DNA from: Tribonema minus
Lineage: Eukaryota > Sar > Xanthophyceae > Tribonematales > Tribonemataceae
NCBI GenBank assembly: GCA_017506865.1
Contig: JAFCMP010000101.1
Span: forward strand, 1,240,001 to 1,304,000
DNA: 64,000 nt
Direction: 5' to 3'
The notes under the pieces were generated by a model, which had not been told where the DNA came from, did no database searches, and was given only the letters and a program-made list of their open reading frames with translations. The position numbers and the translations under genes are program-made. Shown one piece after another: positions 3,001-59,200 of the stretch. The stretch's first letter is position 1, and every line of letters begins with the position of its first letter.

Positions 3001-4238
3001 CGCGCTGAGCGACGGACCCGTGGGCGAGCTGCTGCCGGTGCTGGCCACCGTGACGGGGCTGCTCGCGGAGGGCCACAGGGCTAAGGTAGGCGCGGCGGCC
3101 GGGAGTTTGCATGTTAAGAGGAGTGCGTGTGGTCGGCGGGGCTTTGACGGAGCAGCGGTCTCTTCCTGGGCTACGTTTTAGCACCGCTTGCGGTGTGCGG
3201 CGCGGATGGCGAGGGGCGGCTTCGCTAGTTGTGCTGCCAGCGCTGCCGCTGCGGCCGCGTGCACGGCGCCGACCCCATTTCGTGCTCGCCCCACCGCTAG
3301 CGTGCATGCGCGGTCACTGCAGTGCAATGGCATAGTGCAGAGCGCTGACGCGCGCTGCCGCTGCTCGCTGCCACCACCACCCGCTCGTCCGCGCGCAGAT
3401 CATGGGGCACATGGGCGACGTCGCGGAGCGCGTGCTGGCGGTGTCGGAGGCGCTGGGCAAGCTGTCGGCGAAGCTGCCGCCGGCCGCGGACTCCGGCTGC
3501 GGCGGCGGCGCCGGCAGTGGCGGCGGCGGCCTCACCAAGCAGAGCAAGGTCTTCGAGTCCCTGCACAACTACGAGCCGCGCACGGACGAGATGATTTTGG
3601 TGTCTTTCCCGGGCGCGGTGAGTGACGCGCCGAGAGTGTGCTCTGCGTTCTTGACCCTGTGTGCCATCTACTCGATGATGTCAGACTGGACCAGCGTTGA
3701 GGGCTGAGGGGGGGTAATCTGTGAGGCAGCAGAAGGCGGGCTCGCGACGCATGCGGACTTCCTGAGCGGCCAATCTCTAGCTTGCGATGTGTTGTGATGC
3801 GGCGATGTGACAGCTGGCCTCCGCAACCACACCCTTGCTGCTCTCATCCCAGAAGCTTCCGCGGAGAGAACGAGCTGGAATTGGACCTTCAGGTGGCATC
3901 ACCCTGCGGGCATGCGCTCGTGTATTGTAGCACTGGCGTATGCGGATGCACATCGTCGTCATCACCGCGATGAGGAGCACCGTCACCTGACCATAGTCGA
4001 TGTGGGGTTTCCACTGACGCGCTGCGCGCGCTTACCTTACGGCAACGCCGTTTCCCCCCTCTCGCATGCCCCCACCCATGCCGTGTTGACGATTGCTGGC
4101 CTCCGCAGCCGCGCATCGCCATTGCCCTCGACGAGCGCAGCGCGACGGAGGACCGCCACAATGACATCACCTCAATACTTCAACAAGTGACATGCCTGCG
4201 CGCTGCACAGTCCCCCCGTCTGCAAGGCCCTCTCACGC

Positions 4239-4284
<46 letters not shown>

Positions 4285-4590
4285 CCCCGCCCCTGCCGCG
4301 CCGCAGATGCGCATCACCATCGCCTTCGACGAGCGCAGCGCAACGGAGGACCGCTACGACAACCTCGCCTTCTACCGCGACGCCGCGCGCACGGCGACGT
4401 TCCACCCCGACACCTCGTGCTACAGCGGCCGCACGGGCTCCGAGAACTGGCCGGGCTGCGGCGGGCGCCCGCCGCTCGTGTGCGAGGGCGACGCCGTGTA
4501 CGCGCACTGGCAGACGGACGGCAGCAACGAGGACTGGGGGTGGCGCTTCACCGCGACGGCGGAGCTCAGGTGCGTGCCGCTTCTGATGAT

Positions 4591-4623
<33 letters not shown>

Positions 4624-7600
4624 GGGGGGGCATTGCATGAGTGAGTGGGCGGCCATTGAAATCGTGAGCACGGCAACATTATGGTCGTATAATCAAATGA
4701 AAACCTTGCATGCCCTGCCACTCCAAGTTGAAGTTGCATTACGCGCCCGGCGTGTACAAGGGATGCATCAAAGCGGTAGCTGGCGGTCCACTGCAGACGC
4801 CAAGCTCAGTTCCCAGGAGGCAGCAGCGGGTGCAGACCGGGCTCATGTCGCAATGCTGCCTGTGCTGCCTGGCTCTTTTGTCTCATAAGCCCGTCACGAA
4901 AACCACTGTAGCAGACCATGTACTTTTATTGATTCTCGCTCAGGGCGCTAAAACGAAGAAGGCCAGACCACGCACTTCCGAAGTAAAACTTTTTCATGCG
5001 AGCGTGCAGTCCTGGCTCCTCAGCTGTTCCGCTCCCCGCAATCCGCCCCCCACAGGCGCAAGGCGCGCGTCAGCCGCCACTGGCTGCGCACGCTTGAGGC
5101 GCACCTGAGCTCGTGCGGAGCGTCACTGGCAGCAGCGCTCATCTCATCCACGCCGTGGGGCGGCACGCAGGTGATGCTCGCTGTCGCGTGCACTGTTCTG
5201 CAGCCTCTGCACGGTACCGTGCGGCTGTAGGCGTACTGTGCAGCTGTAGGTGCGCGTCGCTGGCACTCGAAAAGATGATGGCGCGCGAGTGGAGGTGTGC
5301 TTTCATGTGGTGTTCTTGCGTGAAATGAGATTGCTGCTGGGTATCGTGTCTGCAACCGCTGATGCGGTTGGGCCGCGGTTGTGTATGCTGCGCTGTGGAT
5401 TGACGTGCTCATTGAGTTTGTGCATTGTCAATTCCTATGTACCTCGAAGCACATGTCTTGGGAGGCGCAGAGCGCACGGGTCGCTGACTGAGACATGTCA
5501 CAGCGAGCGCCGCAGCTCCCGACTGCAACTCAAGTACTGTAGTGACTTCATGCAAGGGGTTACTTGAGCACGATGAGACAGTTCAAGGTATTGGAGTGAG
5601 TACATGACAACATGCACTTGTTATATACAGCTGAGCTGCTTTAGATTAGAGGTGGCGTTGCACTTGCATCTCTGTCCCCACTCCCCTACCCCACACCCCG
5701 CTCCGCCCCGCCCCGCTTTCTTCAGGGACGGTTAGTCCTGCGTGATTAAATACTGTGTCATCAGCTCTGCTTCATGCTTCAGCTCGTTCTGATGGTGCCC
5801 CTCTGCTGACTCACAGTGTACACAAGCTTCCTGAACTTTGACCCGCTTGCTGTCCCCCTGATATACTCATCGCACGATCCTACTCGGCCCCCACTCAATC
5901 TCGGCAGGAGGACCTATATGCGGCCTGGATGGAAGACCCCCTGCTCCGGCAAACCGGGCCCACCTCCAACGCCCCCGACACTGCGCCGCCGACGCCCCCC
6001 GCAACAGCCTCTCCAGCCGAATCTGTGGACTGTACCACTGGTAAGAGATGCTTCCCTTGATGTCTAGCCCTAGTTGTCACGCGCACTCCGACGACCGTGG
6101 TGGTAGGTTGTCTCAGGCTGTTGCGTCGGGCCTGAGCTGGGCAAGCGCTGCCTCTGGACCGTTCGCCAAGAGGAGTGCGGTGCGTGCGCGCTGACATTAT
6201 GGGTATCGCTGTCCCACCTGTGCAGAATCGTGGTCTGCTGAGTGCGCTGACCACGAGCTGCAGTGCCAGGCGCCGCAGTCGCTGTCAGTGCACGGTGGCC
6301 TGCCTGACCGATCACCGCCGCAGATTTGATGCAACCTCAAACTTGAATTTACCTACAACAACACGGCCTACCCCCCTGCAGTCCGCCGTTCTGCGCCCGA
6401 TGCCCTCTTGCACATCTACTAGTCCCTGCCCCCCCGCTCCGCACGCTTCCATCACGCCAGCACTACCGACTCTCTCTGCTGACGCACCCGCCTCGCGCCA
6501 CCACCGCACTCCGCAGACCTAGCGGCAATGGCGGCAACACGCAGCAGCAGCGGCGGCGCCGCCGCGCCACCGCCGCCGCCGCTGCCGCCGAGCCCCGTGG
6601 ACGTGCTGCTGGCGGCCCTCGTGGACAGACAGCCGGGGTCTCTCGCGGACGAGCTGTGCGCGCGCATGCGCCGCGCCGTGCTGGAGGACCAGGGCAGCGT
6701 GGAGCCGGTGAACCGCGCCGTGCGCGCGGCATGCGCCGTGCTCATCAAGCACCAGGGGCTCGGCCCGCAGGCGCTCGCGGTCGCGCAGGCGAGTGTCGGT
6801 GCCTGTGACGGCGCGCGTGTGCACGTGCTGCGGCGCTCGCCGTGTGAGAGCGTAGGGCTAGAGAGAGGAGACGTTGCGCGGCGATGCGCTGCTCGGTGCG
6901 GGGGCGTCCGCGAGGTCGAAAAGTGCACTATGAGATGTGTAGTGCTTCTGACGATGGGCTATGGTACGGCGAGGCGCCTGCGGCGACGCTCCGCCGTTTG
7001 AGAGTTGTGGATCAGAGAGAGCGATGCGCTGCTTGTGCGCGGCTTGCGGTTCGGTGCTGCTGCGGCTCCAAAGTCACGGCGCGCGGGCACCCGCGGGCTC
7101 GCACTGGTTTTGAAAGTGCACTGTGTACAGATATGCGTAGTGGTTGCCGCGGCGCCTGCGTGCACCGTGGTGTCACTGCTGTTCGTTAGATCCACGCCGA
7201 TTGCGCTGCGCTCGCGCGGGCACCGGTTTTCATGTCAACCATGCACCGCTGAAGCGCGTCACTTTCTGCATGCACATTTTTGTCCAGGGGTGATAAGAGT
7301 CAAGCGGAAGCATGCTGGCTCCGCCGCGTGCATGTGATGCTTGAGAACCACTAACACTGGCACCAGCTCACATGATCCTGCTGATTGTGTTTTAGGCCTT
7401 TGGCGCACGTGAGCCTCACACGCTATCGCGCCGCCGCTCGGTGCGCCGCAGGGCCGCGCGGACGCTGGCTCCAGTGTGGCGCTGAAAAAAGCGTGGCGGA
7501 ACGCGCAGAAGATGCGCCAGTACTTTGACTACGGCGACGTGCGCGCCGCCATAGAGAGCCAGGTGCGCTACGCATGTGCACACGCGCCGCTTCGATGGTA

Positions 7601-10600
7601 ACATTGTGCTGTGTTCCTCGATGCGCAGTCGTCGGTGATGTTTGGCTGCTGGTACAAAGTGGCATGCAGCCACGCACGGAGAGGTAGACGTGAGCCGCGT
7701 GCTTGGGGGTGCGCACAAAGCGTGTATGCGTCTCTCGGCACCCACTTGCTTACTCACTGACTCACTGCCTTCAGCCGCTGCAAGGAAAGCTGAGACATGC
7801 GTTACATGCGTGGACATCCCCACGTGCACCTGCCATTGGCACTGGAGCAGCAGAACGTGCACTCGTGCTCTTGTTTGATAACAGCTTCTGCGACTGTGTC
7901 GCCGCATTTCACAATCATCATTGGAAGGCTTGACAGCTGATGCGATCAAGCCGTATTGTCTTGGTGATACGATGCTGGGGAGGGCAATGTTCCCTGCAGG
8001 TACTTGGCATTTACACGTGAGCAGCAGCGACATAACGTTCTTGGTGCTCTCTGGAAGGGCATTGGCCGCTCTGCTGATAGCCCGCGACAAGCTGCTGTGC
8101 ACATCACTCTATTATTCCGCTCACGCTTTGCTTCCCCCTTGCACCCCAACCTCTTGCTTGATGAAAGTATTCAAGCATGCGGTCATTGCCTTGTTGCACT
8201 CGCAATGGTTGCAGATTGTGCTCGTGCGTCTGCCGCATCCCGTGTGCATTAATCAACCACGCACTACCGGATAGGCAGCCTGGCTGCTTGGTGACATCTC
8301 ATGCCACTTAGAAGCGACTCATTCACATGGCACCTCCCTGTGCCTCCCTGAGCCACTCAACCATATTCCTGGAAACAGAAGGACAAATATTTCCGTATCG
8401 TCGTGCGCGACACGACGCTAATATGTCCTCACAATTTGGCAACGCCGCGCTCCATTGCAGATGGAGCTCCAGACGCAGCAGCAGGCCGCCGCCGCCAGCG
8501 AGGCGCTCATGCCGCCGCCGCCGCTGCTGCGCCGCCAGAGCAGCTCGGGGCTCGGCTCGAGCGGGCACGCGCACGCCGCGCCGCACCTGCTGCCCATCAC
8601 GCAGCGCGGCCCGTCGGTGTTCCAGGGCGCGGAGGACAAGGTGCGCGCCGCGCTGCCGCGACTGCGCCAGCAGCAGTGTTTTCATGCTGCGTAGGTATAA
8701 AACAGCAGCAGCACGCGCTACGTGCGCTCTGATCTGGTAGCGAGGGCGCTGAAACGGGGGACACGCGTCAGGGGGTCGAACGGCGCCATGGAGGGCACCG
8801 CCTAATGTGCTCCACAGCAGTTGGGGTTTGCTCAACTTACACGGAAGTTTGATGCGCCGCCCATCACTTCAGCAGTAGGCCAGGACAGGAGCGACAGATG
8901 ACTCACAGCATGCCCGCCTGCGCGTGCCCCCAAACCTGCCTGTGGGCTCTCAGTCAAGCGCGGCATGCGGCTGGAGGAGGCAGAGGAGGTAGGAGAAAAA
9001 GGCACGGCAGCATGAGCGACACGCCAATGGAGATACTGGGGCTGCTTCCAGCGGAAACACTGTCCGCGGTTTTGACCCCATCCCCCCTATACCAGTGCAA
9101 CGACGAGATATCACTGCTGCAGTATGCTCCACACAGAAGTATTTGAGCTTTGTATGCCACTCCATCTGCAGTCCCTCCAGCGCAGTAAGAGACGTGATAC
9201 GCATCTTAATTCCTACGCTGCGCCCGTCGCTGTCAGGTGGTGGCGGAGGTGAGCGAGGGCATCGTGCAGCGCGCGCGCTTCCTGCTCACCATGCCGTGCG
9301 CGGTGTCCAAGGGGCGCAGCAGCGGCGGCGGCGGCAGCAGCGGCGGCGCGGCGGCAGCGATGCCGCCCCCCCCCAAGTCCTCCCTCAAGCTGCTGGCGCA
9401 GGTGGGACTGCAGAGGGCGCGCTCCGCCGACAAGGACGGCCCGCACCACCACCACCGCGACAGTGGGGACGCGGAGGATGAGGCGGAGGGGGGGTTGGGG
9501 GTGGGCCAGGGGGTGCTGGACACTTGGAAGGTGCGCGGCGTCGTACTTTGTGTGCTTGAGTAGTGTAGCTGAGCAACGTGAGTCTCGGTGGTATGTATGC
9601 CTCACAGACCGATGCGATGTGGCGATGAGAGCTGCGGCGACGCGCTCTTGCCGCTCGCGGGTGCGATGTCAATGCGAACGTGGCTCCCCGTGAGCACTTT
9701 ACGTGCCACTCGTCTGACAGACACGTACAAGCCAGAAACTCGCGCTCTCAGTACTACACATGGTGACGGGGGCGGGCTCACCGGCACCTGCAGCTTTGTA
9801 CACGTGCACGCACACACTCGCAGATGCTGCGCCACTCACACACGGTCTGCCTGCTGCCGGTTCTGCCACACCCCTCACAACGCAACTGCAGTGTGACGGC
9901 CCAGCCCTCACAATGGCGCCTCAGCGCTGCGCCATGCGCTGACCACACACACACTCCCCTCCTCCTCTCTGCGCGTCTGTATGTATATACGCGTATGCCG
10001 TTGCAGGCCGTGGTGGGCGAGGCGACGACGGCGCAGAAGCTCAAGGCGACGCTGCAGTACCGGCGCCGCCTCACGGAGCAGCGGCAGCAGGCGCACGTCA
10101 CGTCCACGGGCGAGAGGATCATGGCGTTCCTGCAGAGCTCCGTCAAGGTGCGCGCGCGCGGCGGGGTGGCGGTCGCCGCGAGCGGCAGACGGCGGCGGCA
10201 AGCTGTCGGCGAGGCTGTTGCCGTGTTGACGCGCACCGGACGTATTGTTTTGTTTTGCGCATGTCCACTCAGTCAGTGTGCCGACGGATGTCTCAGTGCC
10301 GCTGTTGGAGCACTTCGAGGCCGTGCGTCCGCATCTGGTCATCTGCTGGCGTGCTGCGCGACGCTGCTGGCGTGACGTGCGCCGCGCATTGCGGACATAA
10401 GAGTACGGAGCAGGTGTTGCAATGTGTCCACACACGCAGCAGAAGTGAAGTGCTTGTATGTCAAGGAAGATACACGGTGTTGATAGCCCAGCAATGCCCG
10501 TGCCTGTAACACTGAAGCGGCACCATGATCACAGCGCTCCATGATGATGCGGTTCTGGCAATGTTCAAGCCTATCCCAGCGACATGTGTTTCAGTGCTAT

Positions 10601-13600
10601 TCTTACGCTCACATTACAGCTAGCCCGCATAGCTGCATCTGGCGCTCCATCGTCACACCGTTCAATTTGTACTCGTGCCATGGAAACCAGCATCCAATCG
10701 ATCACCACCGGCGTGACCTTCGTGCCGCCTCCACTCAACCGTGGAGCTTACAAACGCCCCTCACTGCGTTCTGTCAAAGTGGTGACGATACGCTGCTCGA
10801 TCCGCGCCGTTCTTTGCCAGGTGGACGAGCTGCTGACGCTGCGGCGCCAGCGCAGCGAGCGCGCCCTCCTGCGCGCTGCCGGCCTGCGCCTGGCGCAGAC
10901 GCTCATCAGCGCCGATGCGGCGTCATCGGAGGCAAGTAACATGGTTATATTTAAACCACGTGTTTGATCAACAGTATCATAACTTATTTCTGGAAATACT
11001 AGTTGTTCACGAAGCCCAAAGTTAAAGTTCCCATCTCGGTCAAAACCTTTAGAGCCAAAACCTGTGCCGCGCGCCGCACGCTGCACCTCTACATGTTAAG
11101 GAAGTGGTGGTGGGCATATAAGGGCAGCCCCACTGAAGCTAGATCGATCATCTTATCACTTAGCAGTGCAATGTACTCTTGTGGGTACAGCAGTTCCTGT
11201 GCTCCCTTGCTGTGCGATGCATAGGCGGAGGCAGGTTTTCACTGCCTCGTGGATGCTGCTCGGGAGCCTTGCAAATAACTCAGCAGATAACAGCGCTCTT
11301 GGGCGTCACGCTTGTGCGTGTGCTGCCACTTGACGAAACCGCTGGCCCTCTTCTTCTAATGCTGAGGTGCTGTTCAGCAAGCACTGTGCCATCAGCCAGG
11401 TCATCGCCGCAAACAAGTCTTCACAGCATCACAAACGCATCAGTCAAGGTGCTGCAGGACTCATAGGTGCTGCCGGGCGTTACAAAAACGACCTGAACAC
11501 CTGCTCAAAAGCACACGACGACCTCAAGAACACCATGCATCAGACAAGACAGTAGCCTGCTGCTGGCCACGGCATCGGCACACGCTACCAGCACCACCTC
11601 ACCGATGCGCTATCGCCGCACACGCGTTCCGCAGGCGCGCTGCCACCTGCTGAGCATCGTCGGCGTGGTGCTGCGCGGCGCGCAGCGCGACGACGCCGCA
11701 CGGCCGCGCGCGCACTTCGGCAGCGCCGTCGAGGGCTGCGACGCCGCCGCCGTGGCAGCGCTGAGCCGCGCCTACGCGCAGCTGCTGCGGCGCTGCGTCG
11801 CGCTGCTGGCCGCGTATCTGGAGGCGCGGCGGCGCAAGCCTGCGGCGGCGGCGGCGGCGGCGGCATTGGCGGTGGAGGCGGCGGCGGCGCAGCAGGCGGA
11901 CGCCGTCGCGGCGGCGCTGGTGCGCGTGTGCGCGCTGGACTACGACATTGCGGACCACGCCATGCTGCACGACAGCGGCCTGCTCAGGGTGCGCGCCGCC
12001 GCCGCCGCCGCCGAGGGTTTGCATCGTAGTTGCTCGCGCTTGAGAGCACGTTGTGCGTACCTCTTTGCGGGCATCCGGCACCATTGCTGGGCTGGCCCAT
12101 TGATGGCGGTCGATGTATCCGCAAGCTTCTCGTTGATATCATGTGCTAGAACGGCAACAACTGGTCCACGATGCAGCATTTCTGTTGCGACCGCTGAACC
12201 TACGCGTACACCCCGTTGGCCTTGCTCGTGCAGGTGCTGGACCCCCTCATGGACACTGGCACGCCGTTGCCGGTGCGCAGCGCGGCGTGGAGCCTGTTCG
12301 AGGTGCTGCTGCCGCGCTGCGTCGGCCTGGAGGTGAGCAGCGCTGCTGCGTGTGACTCTCCGCCTGAGCGATGGGGGGTAGACTTCTGGCGGTTGACAGG
12401 CGCAATGTAGTGACCCATCGGTTGTACAACCGCCATCGCCACTGATTGACGCAAGACGCGCTGCACCGCAACCGCCTTCGCTAGCAACTCATGGCGCACA
12501 ATGCCATTGTGTGTGGACACACCATGGAAGGCACCGCACAACCGACCGCTGATGCGCTGTTTGATGCAGGTGGCTCCTTGTTTCGCTGGAATTGCTGCAG
12601 CTCATTGCGCACGCGCGCGAGACTCACTCACCCCCCCTTCTTCTCTCGTGCCACTCCGCAGGGGCAACGCCTCGAGGAGCTGCACGGCCCCTCCGCCTTC
12701 AGCCGCGCCCTCCTCGACCTGCTCGTCGTCCAGATCCAGCGCGTCGCCGCGGCGGCCTCCGCCTCGCTGCTCGCGCCGCCGCCGCCGCACCCCGCCGCCG
12801 CCGCCGCCGCTGCCGCTGCCGCCGCCGCGCCCGCCGCCGCAGACGCCCACTGCAACGGCGCCGGCGCCAGCAGCAGCGCCAGCGGCAGCAGCGCGCAGGT
12901 GCTGGTGCCGGGTGCCGTGCGCGTCGCGCCGCGCGCGCGCGGCCTGCGCGTCCGCGGCGCGCGCCTCGGCCTGCGCCACACGCTCTGCGCGTGGGTGCGC
13001 CGCGACCGCGCCGCCGGCGACGCGCGCAGTGCGGGCGGCGGCTCCGCGCTGGGGCGCACGCGCGAGGAGCCGCCGCGCGTTGGCGAGACGGTCGCGCGCG
13101 GCGACGACTGGGGCGGCAGCGTCGGCGGCGCCGCGGGCGCGGACTGGGGCGCTGGCGACGGGGGGGAGACGGGGACGGTGACGGACGTCGGCGCGCGCGC
13201 GGACGGCTGCGGTTACACCGTAACCGTCAAGTGAGTTGGGCACTTGGGTGTCGTGTGTGTGTGTGCATGTATGGGGGACGGGGGCGGGGAAGGGGGGGGG
13301 GGTCGCGCGGCCGCTCATGCTGCTGGACTGTGCTGCGGTCGCTGTGTGCTTCAAGTTGAAGTAGGTGCCTAGCTTGGCGAGCGGCGCCTGCGTCGACACG
13401 TCTGGGCGCACGCCAGGGGATAGGGTCGAAGCTTGGTCAGGGTGAGCTGCACTCTGTCGACTTTTTTTGGGAAGTATGCCTGCAGACCAGGAAAGCGAGC
13501 CACAAAGTGCCGGCGCATGTACACGTGTTTAAGGTGTCATTCCCCCGCATCTTGAGCACACACTGTTTCTCTGATGAGCATGGTGTTGTGCCCGCGCTGT

Positions 13601-16600
13601 GCAGGTGGGAATCCGGGAAGATCGGCCTCTATGGCTGGGCTTACATGGAGCTCGCGACGCCGCAGGAGGGGGACAATGGCACGCCTCAACCAGTGCAGCG
13701 CCTCAAGTACGACCTGGAGATTCAGGAGGTGAGGCATGGATACGAGTACGAACCTCAAGATGAACTTCAAGGGGTGAAATGAGATAGGAGCGTCTTCTTC
13801 AAGGTCGACCTGAGTGCTGCTCCACACGGCTGTGCGCCACATTTGTTGATTTAAGTACTTGATCAGTCCGCGTGCGAAGTGCGCTTGCCAATGGCTACTT
13901 GATCATTTGCGGAGCGACGCTTTTACGCGCTCGAATTGCTGTTCCTGTTTGCGTGCGCGCCCGGGCGCAACAACGTCCTTCGCCGCGCCCCGCTGCCTGC
14001 ACAACGGTGTCTCAGTGCGTCCACCAGGGGATCCCAAAACAGCCTCCGCGCACGCGCCAGTGCTTCTCTCACGCAAAGCACGGGGCGGCACTGCTTGACG
14101 TCCGCAGCACCTCTCTTCTGTGTTGCTTTCTGTGTCGCCTATCAGCTAGGGCTCTGCCTGCACCTACGTGCATCGCGTTGTCGGCCTGTGCCAGACAACA
14201 AGTGATGGCACTAGTCTACGCTGCTGCTTCCCTGAGTCTCTCCGCAATAACTTCACGTTCAATTCCGTACGCCTGTTCGCCCTCTCGCCGCGTGCCCATC
14301 CTTGCTGGTCGGTGCCATGCAAGGAGTGCCCTTGCTGGTCGGCGCCATGCAAGGAGTGCCGTGCACGCTGCTGCCTCCCCCCGACTCTTCGCAAAAGCTT
14401 CACTCTCTTTTTGGCCCGTTCCCATTCTATTCCATACGCCTGTTCGCCCTCTCACCGCGCTCACGCCACCTGCCCGCGCGCGCACGCACCGCACCGCAGG
14501 GCGTTGGCGGCGTCCTCTGGCAGAAGGGCGCCGCGCCGAGCCTGTCGGTGGAGGAGGCGGAGCGCGCTTGGAGCGCCTTTGGCGTCGAGCTCACGTGCGA
14601 GGGGCGCCCGCGCTACACGGCGTCGCAGGTTAGGGTTGGAATTAGGGATAGGGCTAGGGTTAGGTGTAGGGTTAGGTTAGGTTTAGGGTTGCAGGTCAGG
14701 GTCGCAGGTCGGCGCTGAGCGAGCACTGCTGCACCGCATTCTACGTCATGTATTTAGTACGTGCACGTCAGCATGTCACCCGTGAATTGGTGCTTAACAC
14801 ACTGCAGGTCGGCGCCTAACGAGCACTGCTTCACCGCATTTCTGCGTCGTGTAAAACGTGCACGCCAGCACGTCACCCTGTGAATTGCTGCGTAACGCGC
14901 TGCTTGTCCCCGGCTGCGCGCCCTTTGCGTGCCAAGAGGGCGGGTCGCTTGCTGTCTGTACACGCTGTGGAGCACGGGTACGAGAGCGCCCGCGCACGCC
15001 ACCACAGCGATGGCCGACTTGCGCTGATTCGCGACTCGAGCCGTCATTTCCGAAACCGTCTATCATCACGGCCGCTGCGTTGCTCGCCTCGGCAGCTTAC
15101 GCACTGCGCAGCTCTCCCCACAAAATCACAATCTTCAAATGACACTCCTTGCCCAGCAGCCCACCGAACTTCAACAGCGCTGGCTCGCGCAGGGCGGCGA
15201 CCTCGGCACAATCCGCGTCACCGCCGCGACAGCGCTCGTGCCCGACGCGTGGACGCACGTCGCGCTCGTCCACGGCTTGAAATCACCATCTTCAAATGAC
15301 ACTCCGTGCACAGCAGCTCACCGAACTTCAACCGCGCGCTCACTCGCGCGCGCGCAGGGCGGCGACCTGGGCACAATCCGCGTCACCGCCGCGACAGCGC
15401 TCGCGCCCGACGCGTGGACGCATGTCGCGCTCGTCCACGGCGGCGGCGCCGATGCCGCCGACGTCCGGCTGTACGTCGGCGGGCGCGAGGCCGGCAGCGG
15501 CGCGCTGGCGGCGCACATGCTCGTGCCGGCGGGGCGCGCGGACAAGCGGCGCGCGGTGGTGAGCGCGTGCTTTACTAGGGTTTATTAGGGTTAGCATGGT
15601 GTGCTTCGTGAGGGTTAGCATGGTGGTTGTGAGCGGGGAGCAGGCGCTTCGTGCACGCGGTGGCTAGCGCGCGCGCTCTCTGCGAGGCTAGGGTCAGGGT
15701 CGGCGTGATGATGATGGTGTTGATGGTCGTGAGCGGGGATCAGGCGCTCGTTGTGGGGATTGAACAACTTGTGTAATGAGCTTGAACTTCAACCATGAAC
15801 TTCAACCATTCGCTTGAGTGTGCGCGCGCAGGTGCACAGCATCTCTTTGTCCGTGTTTCAACTCTGGTGCGTCACGTCAACAACGCATCTATCTATCACT
15901 ACCAGTAGCATAATATTATACATACGACGCACTCAGGCGCTGTCGCTGGGGTCAGGTAGCTGTGCATGGGCGCCTCTGTGCACATTCAACGTGTGTTATG
16001 GTGAGGCGGTTGGCGGTTCAGATGTACTTGAAGTAGTTGGGCCTTGGGGGGGGTGAAGTGCCCCTTTTCACATCTTACTCATTAGCCAGGGGCTGCAGGT
16101 GTGGTTCGGCGCTGAGACTTTGCAATCTGCGCTCGTCGTCGGCGCTGCTGAAGCCGCATGGTGCCCGCATCTACATGACTTCAGGGGTTCATCTTGAAGT
16201 TCCATACTGACCATGGGCTGTGCATCTGTTCTGCAGCTGCTGCCGCGGGCCTTGCTGCAGCCAACGGGTGCACTTTTGAGGGCTGCGACAGCACCATGAA
16301 GGACGGCAAGTGCACATGCGATTTGTGCCACCAGCGCTGCATGAATGCCTCTGCGGCAGGCAAGCACCTCACTAGAGTGTGCCTCATGAACACCTCAAGT
16401 GAGGTTCTTACTCGCCACAGAGGCACTCTTGTAGTGCTGGTGGCCCGAACCGCACGTGCACTTGCCGTCCTTCATGGTGCAGTCGTAGCCCTCATAAGAG
16501 CACCCGTTGGCTGCAGCAAGGCCCGCGGCAGCAGATGCAGAACAGATGCACAGCCATGGTCAGCATGAAACTTCAAGTTAATGGTTGAAGTTACACACTA

Positions 16601-46868: not shown

Positions 46869-49800
46869 TCAGGCGCACATGGGACGCGGGTGGAGCGTTC
46901 GCGTGGAAGGTTCGTCTACCGCAGCGCCGCCGGTGATGGCGATCTTGGTCATCATGCCGGTGTCGCTGCACAGAACACGGCAGCAGCAGCAGTAGCCACG
47001 ATGTCAGGAGGTCGTCGGCAGTTGCTTCGGCTGTCGCGTCGCCTGACGCGTGCGCGTGAGGTCCGTACGCGCATGGATTTGAACTGAGCGCTGCCGTAGC
47101 AGCAGCAGCAGCAGGGTGAGCATCATCTCACCAAGCTCTGGCTGATCAACAGAGCATTGACGACGACGACAGTGTGATTGTCATTATTTGACGAAGCCTT
47201 TGATGTGCTCGTGTACTGTCGTCTGTACAAACGACCTTCCCGTGTCTCCTTGCTCACGGACATGCTTGCTTGACGCACTCAGGAGCGTAGTATTGGCATC
47301 AGTACAGCACTTGCAATGATAGCAGCGCTAGCGGCAACCGAAGCTGCACTTCGCTGAACTGAAGCGAGCGGTTGGCGGAGGGGGGCGCAAATCAAAAGTC
47401 AGGCTTATGGCACGCTATGAGCCCAGAGTGCGCACAAAACGCCAAACAATGCGACAAGCCCGCCACTGCAATCGTCACAAATTCTTGCTGTTGCAGTACA
47501 TGCTATGCCGCAAGAGCTGCTACCGGGCGCTCGTGACTGCATTGCGGCTCTCGTCGTCAACAGGCGGTCGCACGTACCTGTGCTCGAAGATGTGGCAGTG
47601 AGCAATCATGTTGCCGCCGTAGCGGTCGGCGCGGAACCTGACAACAGCGGTGCCGCCGACTGCGCCCACAGGCAGCACATGCAGCAGGGGCAAAGCAGTG
47701 CTCAGGAGAGGGTGCAGTGCATGCAGGTTTTGTGCGTGGGAGCATTGGCAAGGCATGATCCAGTTCCCTGCTCAAACTGCTCAGAGCTTGGTGTACAAAG
47801 TGCCAGGCTTGATAATGTCTACCTGATGTAGCCTCTCTGCTCGTTGCAAGCAAGCATGCTGAGGCGGCAAAGCGGGCTTGCAGTACTGCAAGTGGAGTGC
47901 TCGTGCGCAGCGCGCACCCTGGCAACAGCATGAACAGGCCGACAATGTCCACCCGCCTCACTGCGCATCTTTGAGATGACTCAGCGCGCAGAGTGTGACA
48001 TCCCAGAGTTTATGTGCCAATCTCACTTTTGCGCACTGCCCTGCCCCTAAAAAACGCCTCAAGCTGCAATATTTCAGTGCATAGTGAACATCAGCGCTCA
48101 CACCACCGCCCCCCTGACGCCAGCAACAACACAGCTGCCTAGCAATCACCTGCGAGAGTGTCGAGCCAGTCGCCTGCCCTGTACCACCCGGGCGCCAGCC
48201 CCGGCAGCTCCTGGTCGGCCTGCAGCTGGAAGTGGTTGACGTGCCTGCACGCGGCGCAAACGACACACACACCGCGCAGTCAGAGCGCTGAGCGTTTCCA
48301 CATTGGCGTAGGGACCTTGTGTGATTACGCAAAACGTGCAGCACATGAGGCGCGTCTGCACGTGCGCAGCGCTTAAACGCTTGCAACTGTGCACCCGGTG
48401 TTGTCGATGCAACGCATCTCTGTACCTGTACAGTGTCGTACAGTGCCGTACAGTCTCGTACAGGCACCGAGCTGCGCTGCATCGACAACACCTCTGGGCG
48501 CGCACAACCAGCACGCGTCTGACATATGCGCGCAACAACACAACCAGATCGCGCGCTTCAGCCAACGGCACGAGAGCGCCGCGCGACTCGCGAGTGACTC
48601 GCGCGCGCTGCCCCCCTGCGCAAGGAGCGCTGACTCACATGTGGAAGGGGTGAGCGCTGGTGCCGCTGAGCGTCACCTCGGCGGCGTCGCCCTCGGCGAG
48701 CGTCGTGAGCGGCGCGTCGTCGGGGCCACCGTACAGCTTGCCGTCGATGGCGCCGTTGGCAAGCGTGATGTCCAGCTTGGTGGCGGGCACGGGCAGCGGG
48801 CGCAGGTCCTGGAGGTAGTGCGGCCTGTGGGGCGAGTGTGAGTGAGTGAGTGAGTGAGTGAGTGAGTGAGTGAGTGAGTGGGTAAGTGAGTCATTGGTGA
48901 GGGATGGCACGATGACGCGTTGCAGCGGTGTGAGGCGAGGGTGGGAGGGGGGTGGCAGCGCGCAGCGTGAGATGAGGGGGGGGCAGCGTAGTGAAGGGGG
49001 CAGTGCACGACTGTCCCTGCGCTCTGTGTTCTGGCCTGATGCATTGCCACGCTCCGCGAGTGCTTGTCACCTTTTGGTCCGCAACAACGCCTTCTGCACG
49101 CACATCACTGAGTACGCTCCGACATCACAAGCGTGTCAGGCCTAACGGACATCCCCACGCACGCACCCACACTCTCACGTGCACGTGCAGTGACCGTTTC
49201 AACGTGCAACTTCAATGCCCAAATCCCCCCCCCCCCCCCCCCCCCCTCCTCCCCCCCTCCCCCCCCTCACCTGCACGGGCGCCAAATAGGGAGCTCTGCG
49301 GGGTGCACGGGGGTGGCACCCGTAACGCTGAGCGTTGCCACCGTGACGGGGGCGTCCATGCCGCCCGTCGTCAGCACGACGTCGTACAGGCCGGCGGTGT
49401 CGCAGTAGACGGCGGCGTCGACGCGGCTGCTGATGGAGAAGAATACCCTGCCATCCGCCAGGATGCGGCCCGCCTCGTTGTCGTACACGCCTGCGCGGCG
49501 GCGGCGCAAGGGGGGTGGAGGAGGGGGGTTTGGGGGGGGGGGGGTCAGCAGGCGGCGCGCAATCGCAATGCTGTGCGCCTGGTGAACAGGGGGGCGTAGT
49601 TGCTGGTGACGCGCCTTCTCACGGTGGGAATGCAAGTACTTTCGTGTTGTTCGGATGTGCGATGCCAATGCATGCGGCACCCCAAGGACTGCCCTACCTC
49701 TACATGCAGGCGCCGTTAACTACTTTCAAGTTGCACAGGCAGCCGTGGCGTTGGCAGAGCTGCAGATTGCGCCGACCGCCGCGACCGAGATGAGGTCAGT

Positions 49801-52800
49801 ACGCAAACTTGAAGGAGTGATGCCATGGATGCATTGCGTTTTACACTACACGCGCGACGCAACGCGCACAACGCAATGGCGCAGCGGCCACCGTCCGCGC
49901 CCGTGCAGACGCGAGATTACGCGCGCTCACCGCCACCGTGCATGCAATAAGAAAACTTATGCAGAAATTATTCCCGTAACTTAGTTGTTTTGAAATCATA
50001 AGGGATGATACCTTGAGTAGTTGTCTGTCTGAACTTGAATCGTTCTTATTGAACCTCGTCGTGCGTGTCGGCTAGCCCCTCCGCGACTGTTCACGACGCA
50101 CGGAGGATGAATCGCATCAGCAGCAGCAGCAGCGCTCACCGTCCTTGGCGATGAGCGCGACTTTGCAGGCGCCCTTGCCGCCGTCGCGCGCGGTGATGGA
50201 GGCGATCGCGTTGTCCTTGCGGCCGATGTGCAGCATGCGCAGGCGCGTCCACTTGCCCAGCGTCACGCCCGTCGTGTAGTCGGCGCAGCCGTTGGTCAGG
50301 TAGTGGCGCTCCGTGGCGGTGCTCGCAAAGAGCTGCGGCGTGCCACGCAGAAAAAAAGCACGGAGCGTTGAATATGTCATATGGTGGATGCTCGCGACGG
50401 AGGGACTCGGTGACTGAGCAGTGCCACGCGGCACGCCGGCAGATGCGCGGACTCGGCACGAGGAGTACGCCTCCCAGGCGCGAGCTGCGTGCAGCAGCAG
50501 AACGCTAGTGGCCGGACCGGGGACACAATTTCTCCCTGGCACGCACACACACGTGTGCAGCACTGTGCGTCACGCGGGACTCAAACTTCAACGCTCACGT
50601 GCATAACTTCAAGTTGAACACTCACGTCGTCCTTCATCGCCGACGCGCGCTCGTTGAGGAACGCGGGGTGAACGTACTGGAAGATGAGGTACTTGTTGGG
50701 CATCTGGCCGTAGATGGCGGGGCGGTGGTCGCCGATCTCAAACGCCGGGTTGTCGTCGATCTGCAGTATGCCCGCCGCGCCGCCGAAGGCCTGGAGGGTG
50801 ACGCTCCCGTGGTGGTGGGGGTGGTAGAAGTGGGTCCCGCCTGCGGTGACGGCAGGTGCAGAGATTGTTTAACGCAGTGCTCAGCCATGAAACACCCCCC
50901 TTCAATCCTCTGGAGGTACAGGGCGCACGACTGGTTTCACGCAGTGCTCACACGAGAAGACCCTCCCTTGCTGCGCTGGAGGCAGGGGGCAAGGGACCCC
51001 CTGGTGTGCATGTGGGAGGAGGCAAGAAGGCCTTGAGGTGTAAGTTGCGCTCGAAGCGGGGGCGGTAGAAGTGGGATCCACCTGCATTGGTGGAAGGTGC
51101 ACAACTGTTTACTGCAGCGCTCAACAAGCAGCCTTGATGTTTTGCAAGCAAAACCATTACGCCATCCACCAAGGTGCTCATCGAGACAGTTGCGCTCGGA
51201 AAGCAGTGTTGAATCCTGGTTGGCGTGTGACATGCCAGCACAACACACATGGTGAATGACTGGAACAGCTACAGGCGTCAACCTGAGGTCAGCGCAAAGG
51301 ACCATGCGAGTCTGTCGCCGCTCTACATGCTATAAAGGTACCACATGCACTCCGCGTGCTCCGATCGACAACTGCAGAGATGCGTACGCGTGGCTTGCGG
51401 ATGCGCTTTAAAGCAAGTTCCAGCATGCTTTCAGGCAAGTGTGCAAGGTGCATGCATACCCCCCCCCCCCCCAGAGAGTACCCCCCCTGCTCACCGGCGT
51501 GGTCGCAGGGGATGGCGTAGGTGATCACCGTGTCGGACCCAGGGAGCATTCTGCGCGCGCAGGCAGGCAGGCAGGCAGGCAGGCACACAGTGTTAGCCAA
51601 CCCTCACCCTAGCCCTAAGGCGACAAATACAAGTGTGAGCATGGCGTGAACGCATGTGCGATGTCATTCGCCAATAAACTAGTCTGCAGTGGCGCTTGCG
51701 CTTCGCATCCTTGACGACGCCCATGGTGGCCAAAGCTCGTAGCCATCTCTGCCTTTGCCTCACAACGCTGTGGACGCAAATGCAAGACTTCATGTGCGGT
51801 TCTGAAGCATGGCAACTGCTCAAATGCATCTCCTGGTGCGCCACCATGTGGCGCTGGGCGCCCATGCCTGAGCATTTGCTCCAGGCTGTGGGCGTACATT
51901 ACTTCTTACAGGTCTGCAACACCAGCTTCAACTCTTGACATTGCGTGACAACGCCCAAAGCACCGCCAGCTGCACAGACATGTGTTCGCAAACACCAGCA
52001 ACGCCGTTGCATCGCTCAGCACGGCACTCACTCGCGCGCCACGTTGTCGGCGGTGCCCATGCCCGAGATGTGCAGGCCGTGCGTGTGCAGGTTGGTCGTT
52101 TGCGGCGAGTGCATGGTGTTCTCCGCGCCGGGCACGTTCGCCCAGCCGGCGAGGCCGTTGCGCAGCGTGATCTGGTACGTCTTGCACGCCTGCATGCGGA
52201 TGATGGGGCCGGGGATGTGCCCGTTGTACCTGCAGGGGGGGGGGGGGGGGGGCGCGTGTACTAGTTCAACTTCAAGAACGCGAGAGAGGCATGCGGTGGG
52301 TGCACTCGGCGCGCGCAGTGTCGCGGCAGCAGTCGGCGCGCACGCAGCGCCGATAGCGGCGCATCAGCAGCAGCAGCAGCAGCAGGCGCGTGCGTGGTGG
52401 CTGTTGCGTTTGCGTCGGGCAGAGGCCTTGATGATGCCACCAAGTGCTGGGACACTAAAGCCCGGGCTTGCCGTGAGCTGGGGGGGGGGTGGGATGGCAC
52501 CATCTGCAGTGACATCCGCTGCAAGACCCTTTCTGAGAGTGGACACATTGCATGCGGACAGAAGCGTTTCTGACAGGAGTCCCACATCGAGAGACTGGAC
52601 AGAGAGACACAGGATTGCAGACGCGGGCAGAGGTGCGCACTCACCCCTGACTCAGATTTAGACTCGCCACTCAGACTCCGGACTCTGATGCGGACACACA
52701 GCAGAGACTCACCCGCGCGTGCGCGTCGTGCCGTGCTTGTTGGTGAACTGGATCGGCTCAAAGTGGAGGCGCGCGCGCAGTACGCCGTCGACTCAGATTC

Positions 52801-53235
52801 AGACTCGCCGCTCAGACTTGGGACTCTGATGCGGACACACAGCAGAGACTCACCCGCGCGTGCGCGTCGTGCCGTGCTTGTTGGTGAACTGGATCGGCTC
52901 AAAGTCGAGGCGCGCGCGCGCAGTACGCCGTCGACTCAGATTCAGACTCGCCGCTCAGACTCGGGACTCTGATGCGGACACACAACAGAGACTCACCCGC
53001 GCGTGCGCGTCGTGCCTTGCTTGTTGGTGAACTGGATCGGCTCAAAGTCGAGGCGCGCGCGCAGTACGCCGTCGGCGCCCTGCGTCCACGCCAGCGTGCC
53101 CATGTTGTCCGACTTGCCGGCGATCGCGCACTGCTTGGTGGGGAACTTCACGGGCGACGCTCCCGCGGGGGGCGGCGGCACAGCCGTGAGGGGGGCCACC
53201 ACCACTTCCAGGTTCATCTTCTCGTTGGGGTCCAG
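46869..53235 (-). CDS. Gene 2 exons 14-23: multicopper oxidase domain
   Basis: Exon 14 begins LDPNEKMNLEVVVAPLTAVP. Exon 15 reads YNGHIPGPIIRMQACKTYQI then TTNLHTHGLHISGMG (first HxH copper motif, about residues 676-681). Exon 17 reads GTHFYHPHHHGSVTLQAFGG (second motif, about 719-723). Exons 20-21 join as SAHPFHMHVNHFQLQ (third motif, about 980-988). Exons 22-23 join as IAHCHIFEHSDTGMM (fourth motif with the T1 Cys, about 1036-1047). All four motifs of an active T1/T2/T3 copper centre are present, and the T1 axial position is Met, as in bilirubin oxidase and CueO rather than high-potential laccases. The protein ends RTLHPRPMCA, with TGA at 46871-46869. Confidence 0.92.
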
Positions 53236-56200
53236 CTGCACATATGCGTACACATTCGGCAAGCGGACGGGAAGGGTGAGGGGGGGGGGGTGTGAGACGG
53301 GGCATCGTGCGCAGCCGTGCCAGGTGTGTAATGTGCATGCATGCAAGGTGGTAGTGATCTAGGCGTAGGCGTATACATAGGGTAGGGCGCAAGCGCGTGC
53401 ACACTCATCTCGCATCTTGGGACGCGGCATGCGGTGCCACACTCAAACACTGCCTGCGCAGAGCTGGCGCTGACGACAGGTTGTGCTCGTGTTAAGGCGC
53501 ACGGTAGCAGTTGTCTACCTCAAATGTGAAGGCGTGGATCGCCGTCACGGCATTGTCTGCACGGTCGCCTGTGGTCGCTGCTCTGTGACCCTAACCCTAG
53601 CCCTAAGCCTAAGCCTAACCCTAGCCCTAGCCGGGCAGCGCTGGTGTGGAACCGTCCTCCTCTGCAAGCAGTTTGTTCATAAGCAGCACCTTAACACGGG
53701 CTTGCTGCAAGCAGTAATCAGCTGCCATGCAGCTTTGCGTAGCACAACGGCATGCGCGAAATCTCTTGAGCGGTCTCAGCGCTGACAATGAGCGCACAGT
53801 TCTACTTCAACTTGGGCGCAGGAACTACGCGTGGTGACTCCCCACGGCGGTGCACCTCGACAGTGTCTGAATGCGGCTACTCGATGCCACTGCGAGCATA
53901 CCATTTTCACGCGCGGCGAATCGCCGCGGCGGTGGACGTCGACGCTGCCATCCCCACATCAATGCAGGGACATGCAACTTCAAGTCTTGTGCATGGTGGT
54001 GACTCACCACGGCGGTGGACGCGAGCGAGAGGATGCGCGAGTTCTGGTAGTCCAGCACGAGGATCGCGCCGGTGACGGGGTGGCGCGTGATGTGCGAGAT
54101 GCCGACGTCGCCCGCAGCCATCAGGGCGCGAACTGCCAGATCATAGAGGGGCGTGAGAGGTCAGGGCGAGGGTCAGATGTGAGGCTAGGGTTGCGGTTCG
54201 AAATGCCAGAACATAAAGGGGTTTGGAGGTCAGGGCGAGGATCAGAGATGGGGCTAGGGTAACGGTAGCAGTGTTGTTGTGTGCTAGCCCACCAGCTAAT
54301 ACTCTGCTGCAGCCGTGCACCTAGTCTTACTGGTAGGTGCCAAGCGAGGAGTTGTGCGCATGCCGCTGCCTCTCCCAGACTCTTCGCGAAAGCTTCACAC
54401 TCTTCAGGGCTTGCTGCCCCATTCAGCATGCGCCTAGACCAGGACAGGAGCCGTGGCGGGCGTGTGCGACCTCATGCCCGGCGCAACGCGTGCGGGAGCG
54501 AGCTCTCGCTGAACAGGCCTGATGCGCGCGTGGCACGCGCCGCAGCGGAGCACTGCACCTAACGTATGGGGACAGTGCAGCGCGCCATGCTGCGCAGCCC
54601 ATCCCGCAGCAGCAGCAGCAGCAGCAGCCGCGTCGTTCAGCGTGTGCCGCTGATCTGAAGGCAGCAGTCTGCTGCGGGCGCTGCATCACATTACGCGGCG
54701 CATGCACACACTCGCATCAGCCGCGCTGCTCTACGGGTAGGCAGGACTGAGCCAGCAGGTGTCATAGGCAGCAGCGCTCCGGCCGGTGCTGCTCACCGTT
54801 GATGACCATGCCGTTGGAGTAGTTAAGGTTAGGGTTCAGGGTTGGGTCAGGGTTAGGGTCAGGGCTAAGGTTAGGGTTAGGGTTAGGGTTAGGGTTAGGG
54901 TAGGCTCACCGTTGATGACCTTGCCGTTGGCGTCGAGGGAGCCAGTGAAGAGGCAGCGCTTGGCGTGGTCGGAGAAGAAGAGCTTGTTCTCGTACTTGGT
55001 GCCCATCTGCGCGCCCTCGTTGAAGTAGATTCTGGGGGGGGGGGGGGGGGGGGGGGGGCAGCGGAGCGTCGCGCGCGCACTTGTGAGCGGGCCCGCGAAC
55101 TTTAAGATCATCAGCATGCATGACAGGTGCATCGTGCGCGCACCAGAGGGCGGAGAGCTCTCAACAGCCGCTGCTAGCGCGTGCGGTGTTTTGCTGCGTT
55201 GACTGCGCTGCGGGCGCGAGACGCGCGCGCCGAGTCGAGCGATGCTGCGGTGACACCACAGCCCCCTCCAGCGCCAGCTCGCGTTCATCAGACGCGGCAC
55301 CTGGGGGATGCAACAGCTCGGGACGGCAACCAGCGACCGCTCCAGCCGACACCACCGCACGATGAGGCTGATCATTTGTGCTGAGCACTGTTGTCGCTCC
55401 CTCGCGCTCACCCGCTGACTGCCGCCCTGTCGCCGCCACAGTTGGCGTAGGTGGGGTCGGGCAGGTCGCGGAATTCGTACGTGGGCCCGAAGTAGTGGGG
55501 CTCGGGGACAGTAGTCGCTGGGTCTCCGACAAAGAACTCGGGCCTGACGCCGGCAGCCTGCGAGGGGGGGGGGGGGGGGGGGGGAGGATTGACTGTTAAG
55601 GAGTGACTGCGGGGGGAGCGGGGGGGGGGGCGGGGGGGTGACTTTAAGGAACGACTGCGCTCGCTGTAGCCGAGGCGTTGAAGCACAGTCGAGGTTGACC
55701 TACTAGTAGAGCTACGCATGGGATTGAGCTGAAGGGATCTGAGGGGATCAAAATTGCCGTGCCTGCAGAGACGTATTCCCCCCCGTGAGCTTTCTGGCCC
55801 AGCTGCTGTCATCCTGCCGGTCTGCAGTGCGCTGGAAGCCGCTAGTGCCAACCCATCATGCACCCTGGCAAGCTCGCATAAGGGTTCTGCACCGAGTCTG
55901 GCAACGTTTGAGCACTGCGCATGATTGTTTCAGGTGTGGTGAGCGCTGCGCGTGGCTGATGGATCGCAAGCGATCACGACGGCGGCGCGGCGCAGGACTC
56001 ACTGCGCTCGACGGACGCTGCGTGCGCACGCGCGGTTCAGCACGCACACATTGGGCACCGCACTCGGGCGAGCATCATGCGCCGTCAGCGACTGCGCGCG
56101 TCTGAACTCGCGTGCACAGTTTGCGCGCTGATTACCCTGCAGCGCGTTGAGAGGGGGTCGCACAGGGTGTGCCCCTGCGCCTTCGCGCACTTCGGTAGCT

Positions 56201-59200
56201 TCCGCTCGAGGGGCGGAAAACCCGTGAATAATGCACTATACGCATCTTGTGCTTGAGTCGAGCGTGTGCTCACATGCATAAACTATGAAACATGCAGAAG
56301 CATGCTCTTGCGCTCGTGTCGAACGTGGGCTCATGCACATGTTGATGAACGCAGCTGAGCACTGTCGCACCTTGAAGACGGGGTCGCACAGGGTGTGCCC
56401 CTGCGCCTCGATGCACTTTGATCCCTTGGGGCGGAAACCCCATGAACCATGCAAGATGTGCTCTTGTGCTCACGCGCATTGTTTATTGCAGCTGAGTACA
56501 GTCGCACCTTGAAGACGGGGTCGCACAGGGTGTACCCCTGTGCCTTCATGTACTTGACGCGCTCCTGCTCGCTCCACGCCTCCACCAGGTAGGCGCCCTT
56601 CTCGCCCTGCCGGTGCGCAGCAGCATGGGCGCCGAGATTCGCGGTGAGGGCTTGGGTCCAATTGCGTGTGGAAATGTGTTGCGTCAATACTTAGTCACAG
56701 CGTGATGTAGAAGGGCTAGCAGGCAAGTGGTTCAGGTGGTTGGGTATGGCTTATCACGTTGGAGGCCTCACACTGTACCGTAGTACTTGTCGAGCGCAGA
56801 GGACTTCTACAACCAACATCAAACAACATGTCGCAATCGTGCATTGAGAGCTGAACTTGAAGTGCACTTGTGTGCCTGCAAACAAGAAGCTGCAACAGCC
56901 ACAAGCGGCCGCACAGGCCCTCGGGATCCTTATCCTGCGCCCTCGTGTCCCACCAGACTCTGGACATGCAACCTCAATGCGACTGTGCACGGCCAGGTGC
57001 CTTACAATAATTGGCTTGATGCGTAGTGTCACTAGCACGCAGCTCATGATAAAACACACACCAGCCTTGCTTCAATAAGTCAGGTTCAAGTTCAAGTAGT
57101 CAAGTTCAAGCAAACAAGTGCAACGTCAGTACATACATACCTCAAAGCAGGGCCACGCCATGTTCAGCACCGGCCGCTCCTGGCTCGAGCCCCTGCAGCG
57201 TCCGGCAAGCGACACACACGTGGCAGCAGCACTCAGTACAGCATGGATTCACTGTGATCATCCACAGTTCAAACCGCTAACATGTACTGAGTATGGCTGC
57301 TGGAGTCTACGAGGCGCAACCGGGCATGAAGAGAGGGGAACAGCAGGCGGGCAGTTGCACTGCGCCGCGCGTCTTTCTGCGTATGGACAAGTGGCCCGGC
57401 AGCGTACATCGACGCGCAATGTGGAGCGTCAGCACTTGAACTTGTGGCGGCGCGGCAGTGCTCACAGCACAGGTTGCTGCGCACCGCCACTCGCAAACAA
57501 GAGGTGCGACACGCCCCTTAGGTCGCCTGCTTCGATGGCTGCATAGTCCCCCACGAGCAGCACTACTTGAAGTTAGTCAATGGCGCATGGATTACTCTTA
57601 TAGCTGAAAGCCCGCGGCTGTACACCTCAACTTCACGCGCACGCCGGCGGTGACGCTCACCTGGCGTTGAAGTGGAAGATGCGCTCTGCCTCGCCGTTGC
57701 CGACGTCGCCCACCCAGATGGTGTCGTCGGGCAGGACCATGGACGAGTACGGGTTCCGCATGCCCTTGGCAATGATCTGCACGCGCACGCAATCGAGTGG
57801 ACGCGCGGTCATTAATTGGCGATCAGACGAGTGTGTCAGATGCACACCCGGGCGGTGTCGACACCACGCATCTCGGTACCCTGTCGCACAGGTGTCGTCG
57901 ATGCAACGCATCTCGGTACCTGTACAATTCGGTACTTGTCGTACAGGTACCGAGATGCATTGTACCGATAACATTTGGGCGCACACAGTGGGCGCGCTGC
58001 TGCATCATCACGGTTGCAGCGGCTCCGGCGAGGGCTACCGACGCGGAGAATTGCATGCCGCTGCGGCTGAGCACGGAGCTATTGGCCGTGGCGTGTTGTG
58101 CCACCACTGGCGCCCTCACACGCTGCGGGCATATGCACCGCCCCGCCCCCCCCCCCTCCCTCCCCCCAAGCTGTTCTGCTCCGCCGTCACAATGCTGCGC
58201 GGGTGCCCATTGCCAGCGTAGTTTCAGTGGTAGAAGCAGCACGGTGCGTCACATGTGGCTCACACTGTGACATACTTCGTATGACAGCATCAGCATTGCA
58301 AGGCACACCGTGTCACGGGCATGCGGTGGTCCCAAGGCAATCAGGGTTACGGCAAGCCTGTCCGACAAGTCCCTGTGCTCTAACGCTACCCTAACCCTAG
58401 CCCCAACCCTAGCCCCAACCCTAACACCAAACCTAACCCTGAAGTTTAACCCTTACCCTAACCCTTCTCACCGGCGCCTAGCCATGCTCGCAAGGTCGCG
58501 CATTGCTGCATCACCAGCCCGCAGCTAGCATATGTCTGGCTACGACGTGCGCTCAAAAGGCACGCCAGGCAAACCGTTGCGGACAAGAGGTGACCAGGCA
58601 ATTTCACATTCAACACGCGCACACTTCAGCTGCAGCGGCGGACACGCGACTCTACTTCAAGTGGGACGTGAGCGCTTCTCGGCCGGTGAGCGCTCAGGCT
58701 TCAAACACGTCTATCACAGTCGCATTCACCGTTGACGCACCTCATAGTCGGTCTTGATCTGTATGGGCGCGGTGGCGGTGCGGAACCTTCCGGGGAACAC
58801 GCGCAGGAACTTGCCAATGTCGTTGTGCTCGCGCTGCGCGTTCCACTGGCCCTGCGGAGCGCTGTTGCGCCAGCAGTAGGGTTAGGATCAGGGTGAGCAC
58901 TACATGCGACGTGCGGCGTAAGAGATCTGCCATAGTAAGTTATCAGCAAACATGGAATGTCAGCACGGATGACAATGTAATAGCCCCCCGCGGGCGGCGG
59001 CAGCGTGCAGCTGATGCTGAATGCATCGGCGCCAAGTGCAGAGGATTAGGTTTAGCGCTGGAATGCACGGCGGGGTACAGGCTCTGAGAGCGCTGCGCTT
59101 CGCATGCAAGGTCAACACTCGCTGTAGCGGCGGGGGCGCTGCAGTGCCTCCACAATATCCCAATGCACGCGACACATGGCGTTCGCAAAGCGCTGGTGCT

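Follow-up and report, generated by a model that had tools for sequence, protein, structure and literature searches.

Within 64 kb of the genome of Tribonema minus, a yellow-green alga of the Xanthophyceae, segments that span an exon–intron junction have repeatedly been copied into the adjacent intron. The probable explanation is that local tandem duplication is frequent and nearly neutral, is purged from exons, and is tolerated in introns and across junctions, so that it lengthens introns and makes decoy donors. This stretch of DNA (the window) shows introns lengthening, not forming.

Window, Sample, and Gene Models

The window comprises positions 1,240,001–1,304,000 of a 1.35 Mb contig in an assembly of 158 Mb and 554 contigs. 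For quantitative comparison it was combined with 24 other loci (L002–L025), picked by coordinate regardless of content, to give a sample of about 304 kb. A gene finder that was self-trained on the window plus 240 kb from elsewhere in the same genome returned the same two genes that had been proposed in a reading of the sequence alone:

1..45551, + strand: gene 1, giant HECT-type E3 ligase-like gene (gene model, Pfam, homologs P0006–P0008)
46872..63213, − strand: gene 2, multicopper oxidase, JKP88DRAFT_276354 at NCBI (gene model, Pfam, protein search)

Gene 1 has about 50 exons within the window and its 5′ start lies outside. The spliced 3′ exons match the Pfam HECT domain (E 3.2e-61), and a Pfam search with ten single open reading frames gave matches to HECT and Laminin_G_3 only. 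Gene 2 encodes multicopper oxidase domains (Pfam) and a glucose/sorbosone dehydrogenase-like part that scores below the Pfam cut-off. In a protein search its spliced product was 96% identical to JKP88DRAFT_276354 of Tribonema minus over the full query, and its exon borders match those of the annotated protein P0001, except for two intronic copies that are annotated as exons. Rfam at gathering thresholds gave no matches. Exons shorter than 40 bp or with log-odds below 10 were removed from the gene models, as were, by hand, seven predicted exons representing intronic copies; the exon start at 4108 was also shifted by hand. Of 148 introns, 140 satisfied the length limits, set at a minimum of 60 bp for the flanking exons and 160 bp for the intron.

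Across the window and L002–L025, 48 of 286 predicted donors carry GC in place of GT. Directly upstream of gene 2 lies a partial tandem copy of its 5′ part (L021, window coordinates 66995–68785, versus window 61503–63229), which takes in the first three exons as well as sequence upstream of them and is 73% alike; when we aligned it for duplications in progress, we found ordinary small indels only.

Duplications across Splice Junctions

The sequence-only reading had listed about eleven junction duplications in the two genes. Self-BLAST, Tandem Repeats Finder, and junction alignment identified ten of the eleven as genuine, at slightly shifted coordinates; the remaining case, at 53836, is indistinguishable from chance. 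Those in gene 1 are as follows:

4103..4172, + strand: exon-head copy with a CCGCAG acceptor, 82.9% over 70 bp; the conserved exon copy is 4301–4370, with its acceptor placed at 4306|4307; homologs cross the junction
15123..15276, + strand: tandem copy of an exon head and intron tail, 88% over 162 bp, period 157; the original is 15280–15441, with acceptor 15357|15358; homologs
20763..20888, + strand: array of period 50 with 2.5 copies over donor 20783|20784, decoy donors 20833 and 20883; repeats, scores, homologs
23614..23917, + strand: two tandem copies of period 155 over donor 23701, 88.7%, decoy donor 23856; homologs
28827..29226, + strand: exon tail with donor 28864, copied at 28976–29036 and 29148–29226, 87–92%; homologs
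30002..30429, + strand: array over donor 30033, decoy donors 30096 (GC), 30164, 30244, 30317, and 30392, making six donors in one intron; tandem repeats, self-BLAST, junction alignment, homologs

Gene 2 contributes the following:

50817..51123, − strand: acceptor junction 50840 with a decayed copy at 51058–51123, 77.6% over 67 bp, E 3.7e-6
52649..53074, − strand: three copies of period about 141–143 over donor 52997, 95–97%
53831..53855, − strand: 25 bp similar to donor 54008, not significant by score comparison
54791..54933, − strand: 30 bp copy of an exon tail with donor 54910, 93%, separated from that donor by a telomere-like array at 54822–54901
56150..56555, − strand: exon tail with donor 56508, copied at 56326–56418 and 56150–56192; self-BLAST, junction alignment

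Exon-only parts (90 bp) were compared with 114–119 control alignments per case. In nine cases they scored 38–156, against a control maximum of 22–31. The acceptor case near 50800 was borderline by exon alone (31 versus 29) and clear once the intron part was included (67 bp), and the exon part at 53836 (24) stayed below its control maximum of 27. Self-BLAST and junction alignment also bore out the claim that the units hold both exon and intron bases and are thus genomic duplications. Since these units include intron bases and remain local, we can eliminate retroposed exon copies as their source.

Several of the cases (15123, 23614) are simple two-copy tandems; 30002–30429 and 52649–53074 are arrays, and 20763 is nearly one. 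In others the copies are set apart (4103/4301, 28827/28976/29148, 54791/54904, and 56150..56555), perhaps as tandem units that have decayed or undergone further rearrangement. Identities in the confirmed cases run from about 75 to 97%, in keeping with the several ages that had been proposed. This divergence also bears on the notion of an assembly artefact, that is, haplotype or repeat mis-assembly, which we regard as most improbable: the assembly is indeed in 554 contigs, but the copies in the window differ by about 3–25%, above sequencing noise, and loci on other contigs (C1, C20) show the same class of duplication. The unit 15123–15441 occurs at one place only in the 158 Mb assembly.

Five further mid-intron duplications of like kind in the window were absent from the earlier list; they are given here together with the event at 35126:

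14252..14459, + strand: mid-intron duplication, period 167 (self-BLAST, event list)
14704..14903, + strand: mid-intron tandem duplication, period 100 (self-BLAST, event list)
35126..35266, + strand: tandem duplication, period 70, counted as acceptor-crossing, exon call doubtful (self-BLAST, event list)
40546..40697, + strand: mid-intron duplication, period 98 (self-BLAST, event list)
54129..54266, − strand: intron duplication, period 69, adjoining acceptor 54132 (tandem repeats, self-BLAST)
59773..59932, − strand: mid-intron tandem duplication, period 85 (self-BLAST, event list)

Arrays of at least three head-to-tail copies occur at 30002–30429 and 52649–53074 of the window and at L013:6671–7116; most other events have two copies. 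At L025:2609–3265 both ends of one 228 bp exon have been copied separately and at a distance, the head to a site about 186 bp upstream and the tail to a site about 190 bp downstream.

Probable Working Junctions and Decoy Donors

Two distant homologs of gene 1, P0006 and P0007, can be aligned across junctions 4307, 15358, 20783, 23701, 28864, and 30033 without the copies, and P0008 does likewise for part of these junctions. At the donor array 30002–30429, the homologs pass from exon 29860–30033 into exon 30961–31149. The extra segments of gene 2 are missing from P0002 (a TRINITY-named EukProt sequence), P0003 (a Tribonema minus paralog), and P0004. Because homologous proteins cross the junctions without the copies, we read the copies as intronic. 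This alignment evidence suggests that Tribonema minus splices at the exon-proximal site, and the introns themselves are probably older than the duplications.

GT or GC is kept in 14 of 16 additional donor copies, one of the two exceptions being the unconfirmed case at 53836. None of the 12 donor copies that were scored exceeds its own original. Two copies at 52.7–52.9 kb read G|GTGAGT, with flanks identical to the original.

Introns Lengthened or Introns Born?

In the published AGGT model the flanks of a newborn intron are copies of each other. Among the 140 introns, no pair of donor and acceptor flanks matched at a score of at least 32, and one did at 28 (0.3 expected), so that intron birth of the AGGT kind was rejected. 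Short direct repeats at intron ends were rejected likewise, since the register identity of exon and intron ends is no higher than in controls. Two direct copies with a splice-site motif, and units that span an existing exon–intron boundary as in the potato case described below, are both present in the window; a new intron flanked by the two copies is not. The role in intron evolution suggested by the sequence-only reading therefore holds as far as copies lie within introns and lengthen them, while its proposal that introns are forming here finds no support in the 140 introns or in the homologous proteins, which cross the same junctions without copies.

Annotation offers the one argument for intron birth, either by the Rogers/Hellsten AGGT route or by the potato variant across an existing boundary, with the copies defining new introns and exons. 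The NCBI model P0001 makes exons of two intronic copies (residues 376–393 and 605–631), namely the first copy of the donor 56508 unit and the copy at 52853–52933, and thereby predicts new introns about 80 and 62 nt long. However, P0002–P0004 are without both segments, and the model of P0003 carries several inserts that are missing in the otherwise near-alike P0002. Since the paralog model P0003 has such inserts, we distrust the extra exons of P0001 and consider such models to look unreliable. With no matching flanks among the 140 introns, we judge intron birth to be very unlikely. The NCBI proteins P0001 and P0003 both include segments not found in relatives, those of P0001 being derived from intronic copies, and we advise caution with gene models of the Tribonema minus genome.

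Placement Relative to Junctions

Events were counted if they scored at least 45 at a distance of at most 500 bp and survived removal of low-complexity sequence; the search took in no more than 200 bp of exon on either side. This detector found 37 events in the 140 introns (304 kb): 14 donor-crossing, 7 acceptor-crossing, 16 mid-intron, and none exon-internal, where the acceptor-crossing class includes the 4108 event (exon start moved) and 35126 (doubtful exon). Periods range from 69 to 398 bp, and a recognisable local duplication is present in 34 of 140 introns, about a quarter. Low-complexity short-period tandem repeats do occur inside exons (e.g., 2899–2961 and 19778–19896) and were filtered from the count. 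Expected shares were taken from a simulation in which units were placed at random, wholly exonic ones rejected, copies mutated, and the same detector applied; this null gave 18–23% donor-crossing, 18–22% acceptor-crossing, and 56–64% mid-intron.

A pull toward junctions, implied by the earlier reading, is not seen in the loci outside the window, and a weaker version of it may hold at most on the pooled figures. The pooled donor share (14/37) lies above the null (p 0.014 against 21%, p 0.030 against 23%). For all crossing events pooled (21/37) the excess is marginal (p 0.05–0.08). In the window alone 11 of 16 events are crossing (p 0.028), the window having been chosen for such events. The 24 loci outside it hold 7 donor-crossing, 3 acceptor-crossing, and 11 mid-intron events, which amounts to no crossing excess (10/21 versus about 42% expected, p 0.38) and a donor share of 7/21 (p 0.13). 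The same reading had named equal frequency in mid-intron and mid-exon as a refutation; for mid-intron the observation comes close to this, and exon-internal events of such size are absent.

A comparison by 40 bp tiles had a similar outcome. The final 40 bases of the exon are copied in the adjacent intron in 13 of 137 cases and the initial 40 in 4 of 136. Of the mid-intron tiles, 70 of 1298 are copied overall and 17 of 573 within the window, and the junction-tile controls gave no matches. An exon tail is present in the adjacent intron at 13 of 140 introns and an exon head at 6 of 140; one of the six heads (L024) stops short of the junction, and another belongs to the doubtful event at 35126. 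Exon-interior 60-mers were found in the following intron in 0 of 418 cases, compared with 13 of 140 exon tails (p 1e-8). Contiguous units, with purging of those inside exons, would produce such a difference. The absence of exon-interior 60-mers also led us to reject templated insertion of exon sequence taken at random from nearby.

Among the crossing events that are fully or nearly fully tandem (n = 11), the junction sits at 23–65% of the unit. Ten of the 11 have it within 30–70%, where the null mean is 4.85 (p 0.002), none has it above 70% (p 0.036), and so small a spread of junction position arose in 0.05% of 4000 trials (p 0.0005). This sample consists of 8 of 9 fully tandem crossing events (35126, with a fraction of 1.14 and a doubtful exon, was dropped) and three added by hand (L014 donor 3759, L022:8951, and L025:9077); the period-50 array at 20763 was left out.

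These figures are what would favour a duplication process directed at 5′ splice junctions or starting from them, in which donor-centred units are over-produced, for example by transcription-tied or G-rich-edge breakage. The donor share (14/37 versus about 21%), the preponderance of donor over acceptor crossings (14 versus 7, p 0.19), and the mid-unit junction in 10 of 11 tandem crossing events (p 0.0005–0.002) all point this way. We nevertheless consider targeting unlikely: neither the donor nor the crossing share is significantly in excess outside the window, the donor-excess and centring tests were devised after inspection of the data and on small numbers, the 16 mid-intron events show that a junction is not required, and selection on the exon share of a unit could likewise centre the junction. 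No likelier is the fuller version, in which duplication is initiated at and centred on exon–intron junctions, mainly 5′ splice sites, and introns grow by recopying their own donor junction, leaving strings of decoys. Selection against mostly-exon units could explain part of the mid-unit centring, which breakpoints placed at random would not predict; the pooled donor excess and the mid-unit tendency count against an untargeted process and are unexplained by it.

Untargeted duplication sorted by selection thus remains the reading that we prefer. Local tandem duplications would arise often in the gene space of Tribonema minus. A unit wholly inside an exon would be purged by selection, and the absence of exon-internal events is what selection predicts. 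A unit in an intron or across one junction would be nearly neutral because the exon-proximal splice site stays in use, and the copy and its decoy would be removed with the intron. The outcome would be longer existing introns and strings of decoy donors, with no intron birth.

Other Repeats in the Introns

The sample of about 304 kb also contains 24 telomere-like TTAGGG arrays, mostly between predicted exons. The following start 0–25 bp from a predicted splice site:

14628–14676, 22905–22963, 54822–54901, and 30918–30935: TTAGGG arrays in the window
L021:6907–6987, L013:3699–3739, and L023:4629–4649: TTAGGG arrays in other loci

The three of these arrays that lie near acceptors read CCCTAA in the transcript and include CTAAC, which we take to be a branch-point-like word. 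Palindromic stretches occur in introns at 16193–16577, 38707–39058, 48397–48492, and 57885–57981 of the window; they are self-inverted repeats of about 95–385 bp, 72–87% alike, and those at 16193, 38707, and 48397 have no match in the other sampled loci. A dispersed repeat family, about 71–91% alike, is represented at 14287–14410, 33858–33978, 39152–39295, and 54282–54423 of the window, all in introns, and at L005:8961–9130; it is perhaps a mobile-element fragment.

Comparison with Known Systems

The work of Gao and Lynch (2009) on internal gene duplications is reportedly cited for intron creation. Tribonema is alike in its frequent local intragenic duplication and differs in that the visible effect is intron lengthening. 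In AGGT intron gain, as excerpts of PMC4974935 and PMC3443670 present it for ATP2A1 (Hellsten 2011), a segment with splice-site sequence was duplicated. The tandem duplication of a splice-site-bearing segment is common to both systems, but the Tribonema unit spans an existing junction, its copy is intronic, and no intron lies exactly between matching flanks. In the potato RdRp gene a boundary-crossing duplication supplied ready-made splicing signals and a new intron was shown, according to the part of PMC4974935 that treats it (Ma, Lan and Niu 2016), where a second, intron-internal duplication without any effect is also mentioned. The Tribonema duplications likewise cross exon–intron boundaries and carry splicing signals; unlike the potato case, they show no new intron, only two exons predicted by annotation.

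Two gained introns made of tandem repeats are described for fission yeast in a portion of PMC3629103. Tandem repeats with proto-splice sites in genes are common to both organisms, but in Tribonema they lie inside introns, beside a working junction. Introner elements are copied between genes, as stated in excerpts of PMC9860276; repeated sequence in introns is shared with them, whereas the Tribonema copies are local to one intron. Similar sequence in the introns of many genes was not found, the listed units matching only locally within the window. The name Tribonema does not occur in the main text of PMC9860276, and among the matches listed from a partial literature library no title concerned junction duplications in Xanthophyceae.

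Implications

The junction duplications described here are no evidence for introns being born. Rather, the genome of Tribonema minus offers many natural replicates of a 5′ splice site copied downstream of itself, with which one can test how splicing chooses between near-identical donors and how introns grow by duplication.
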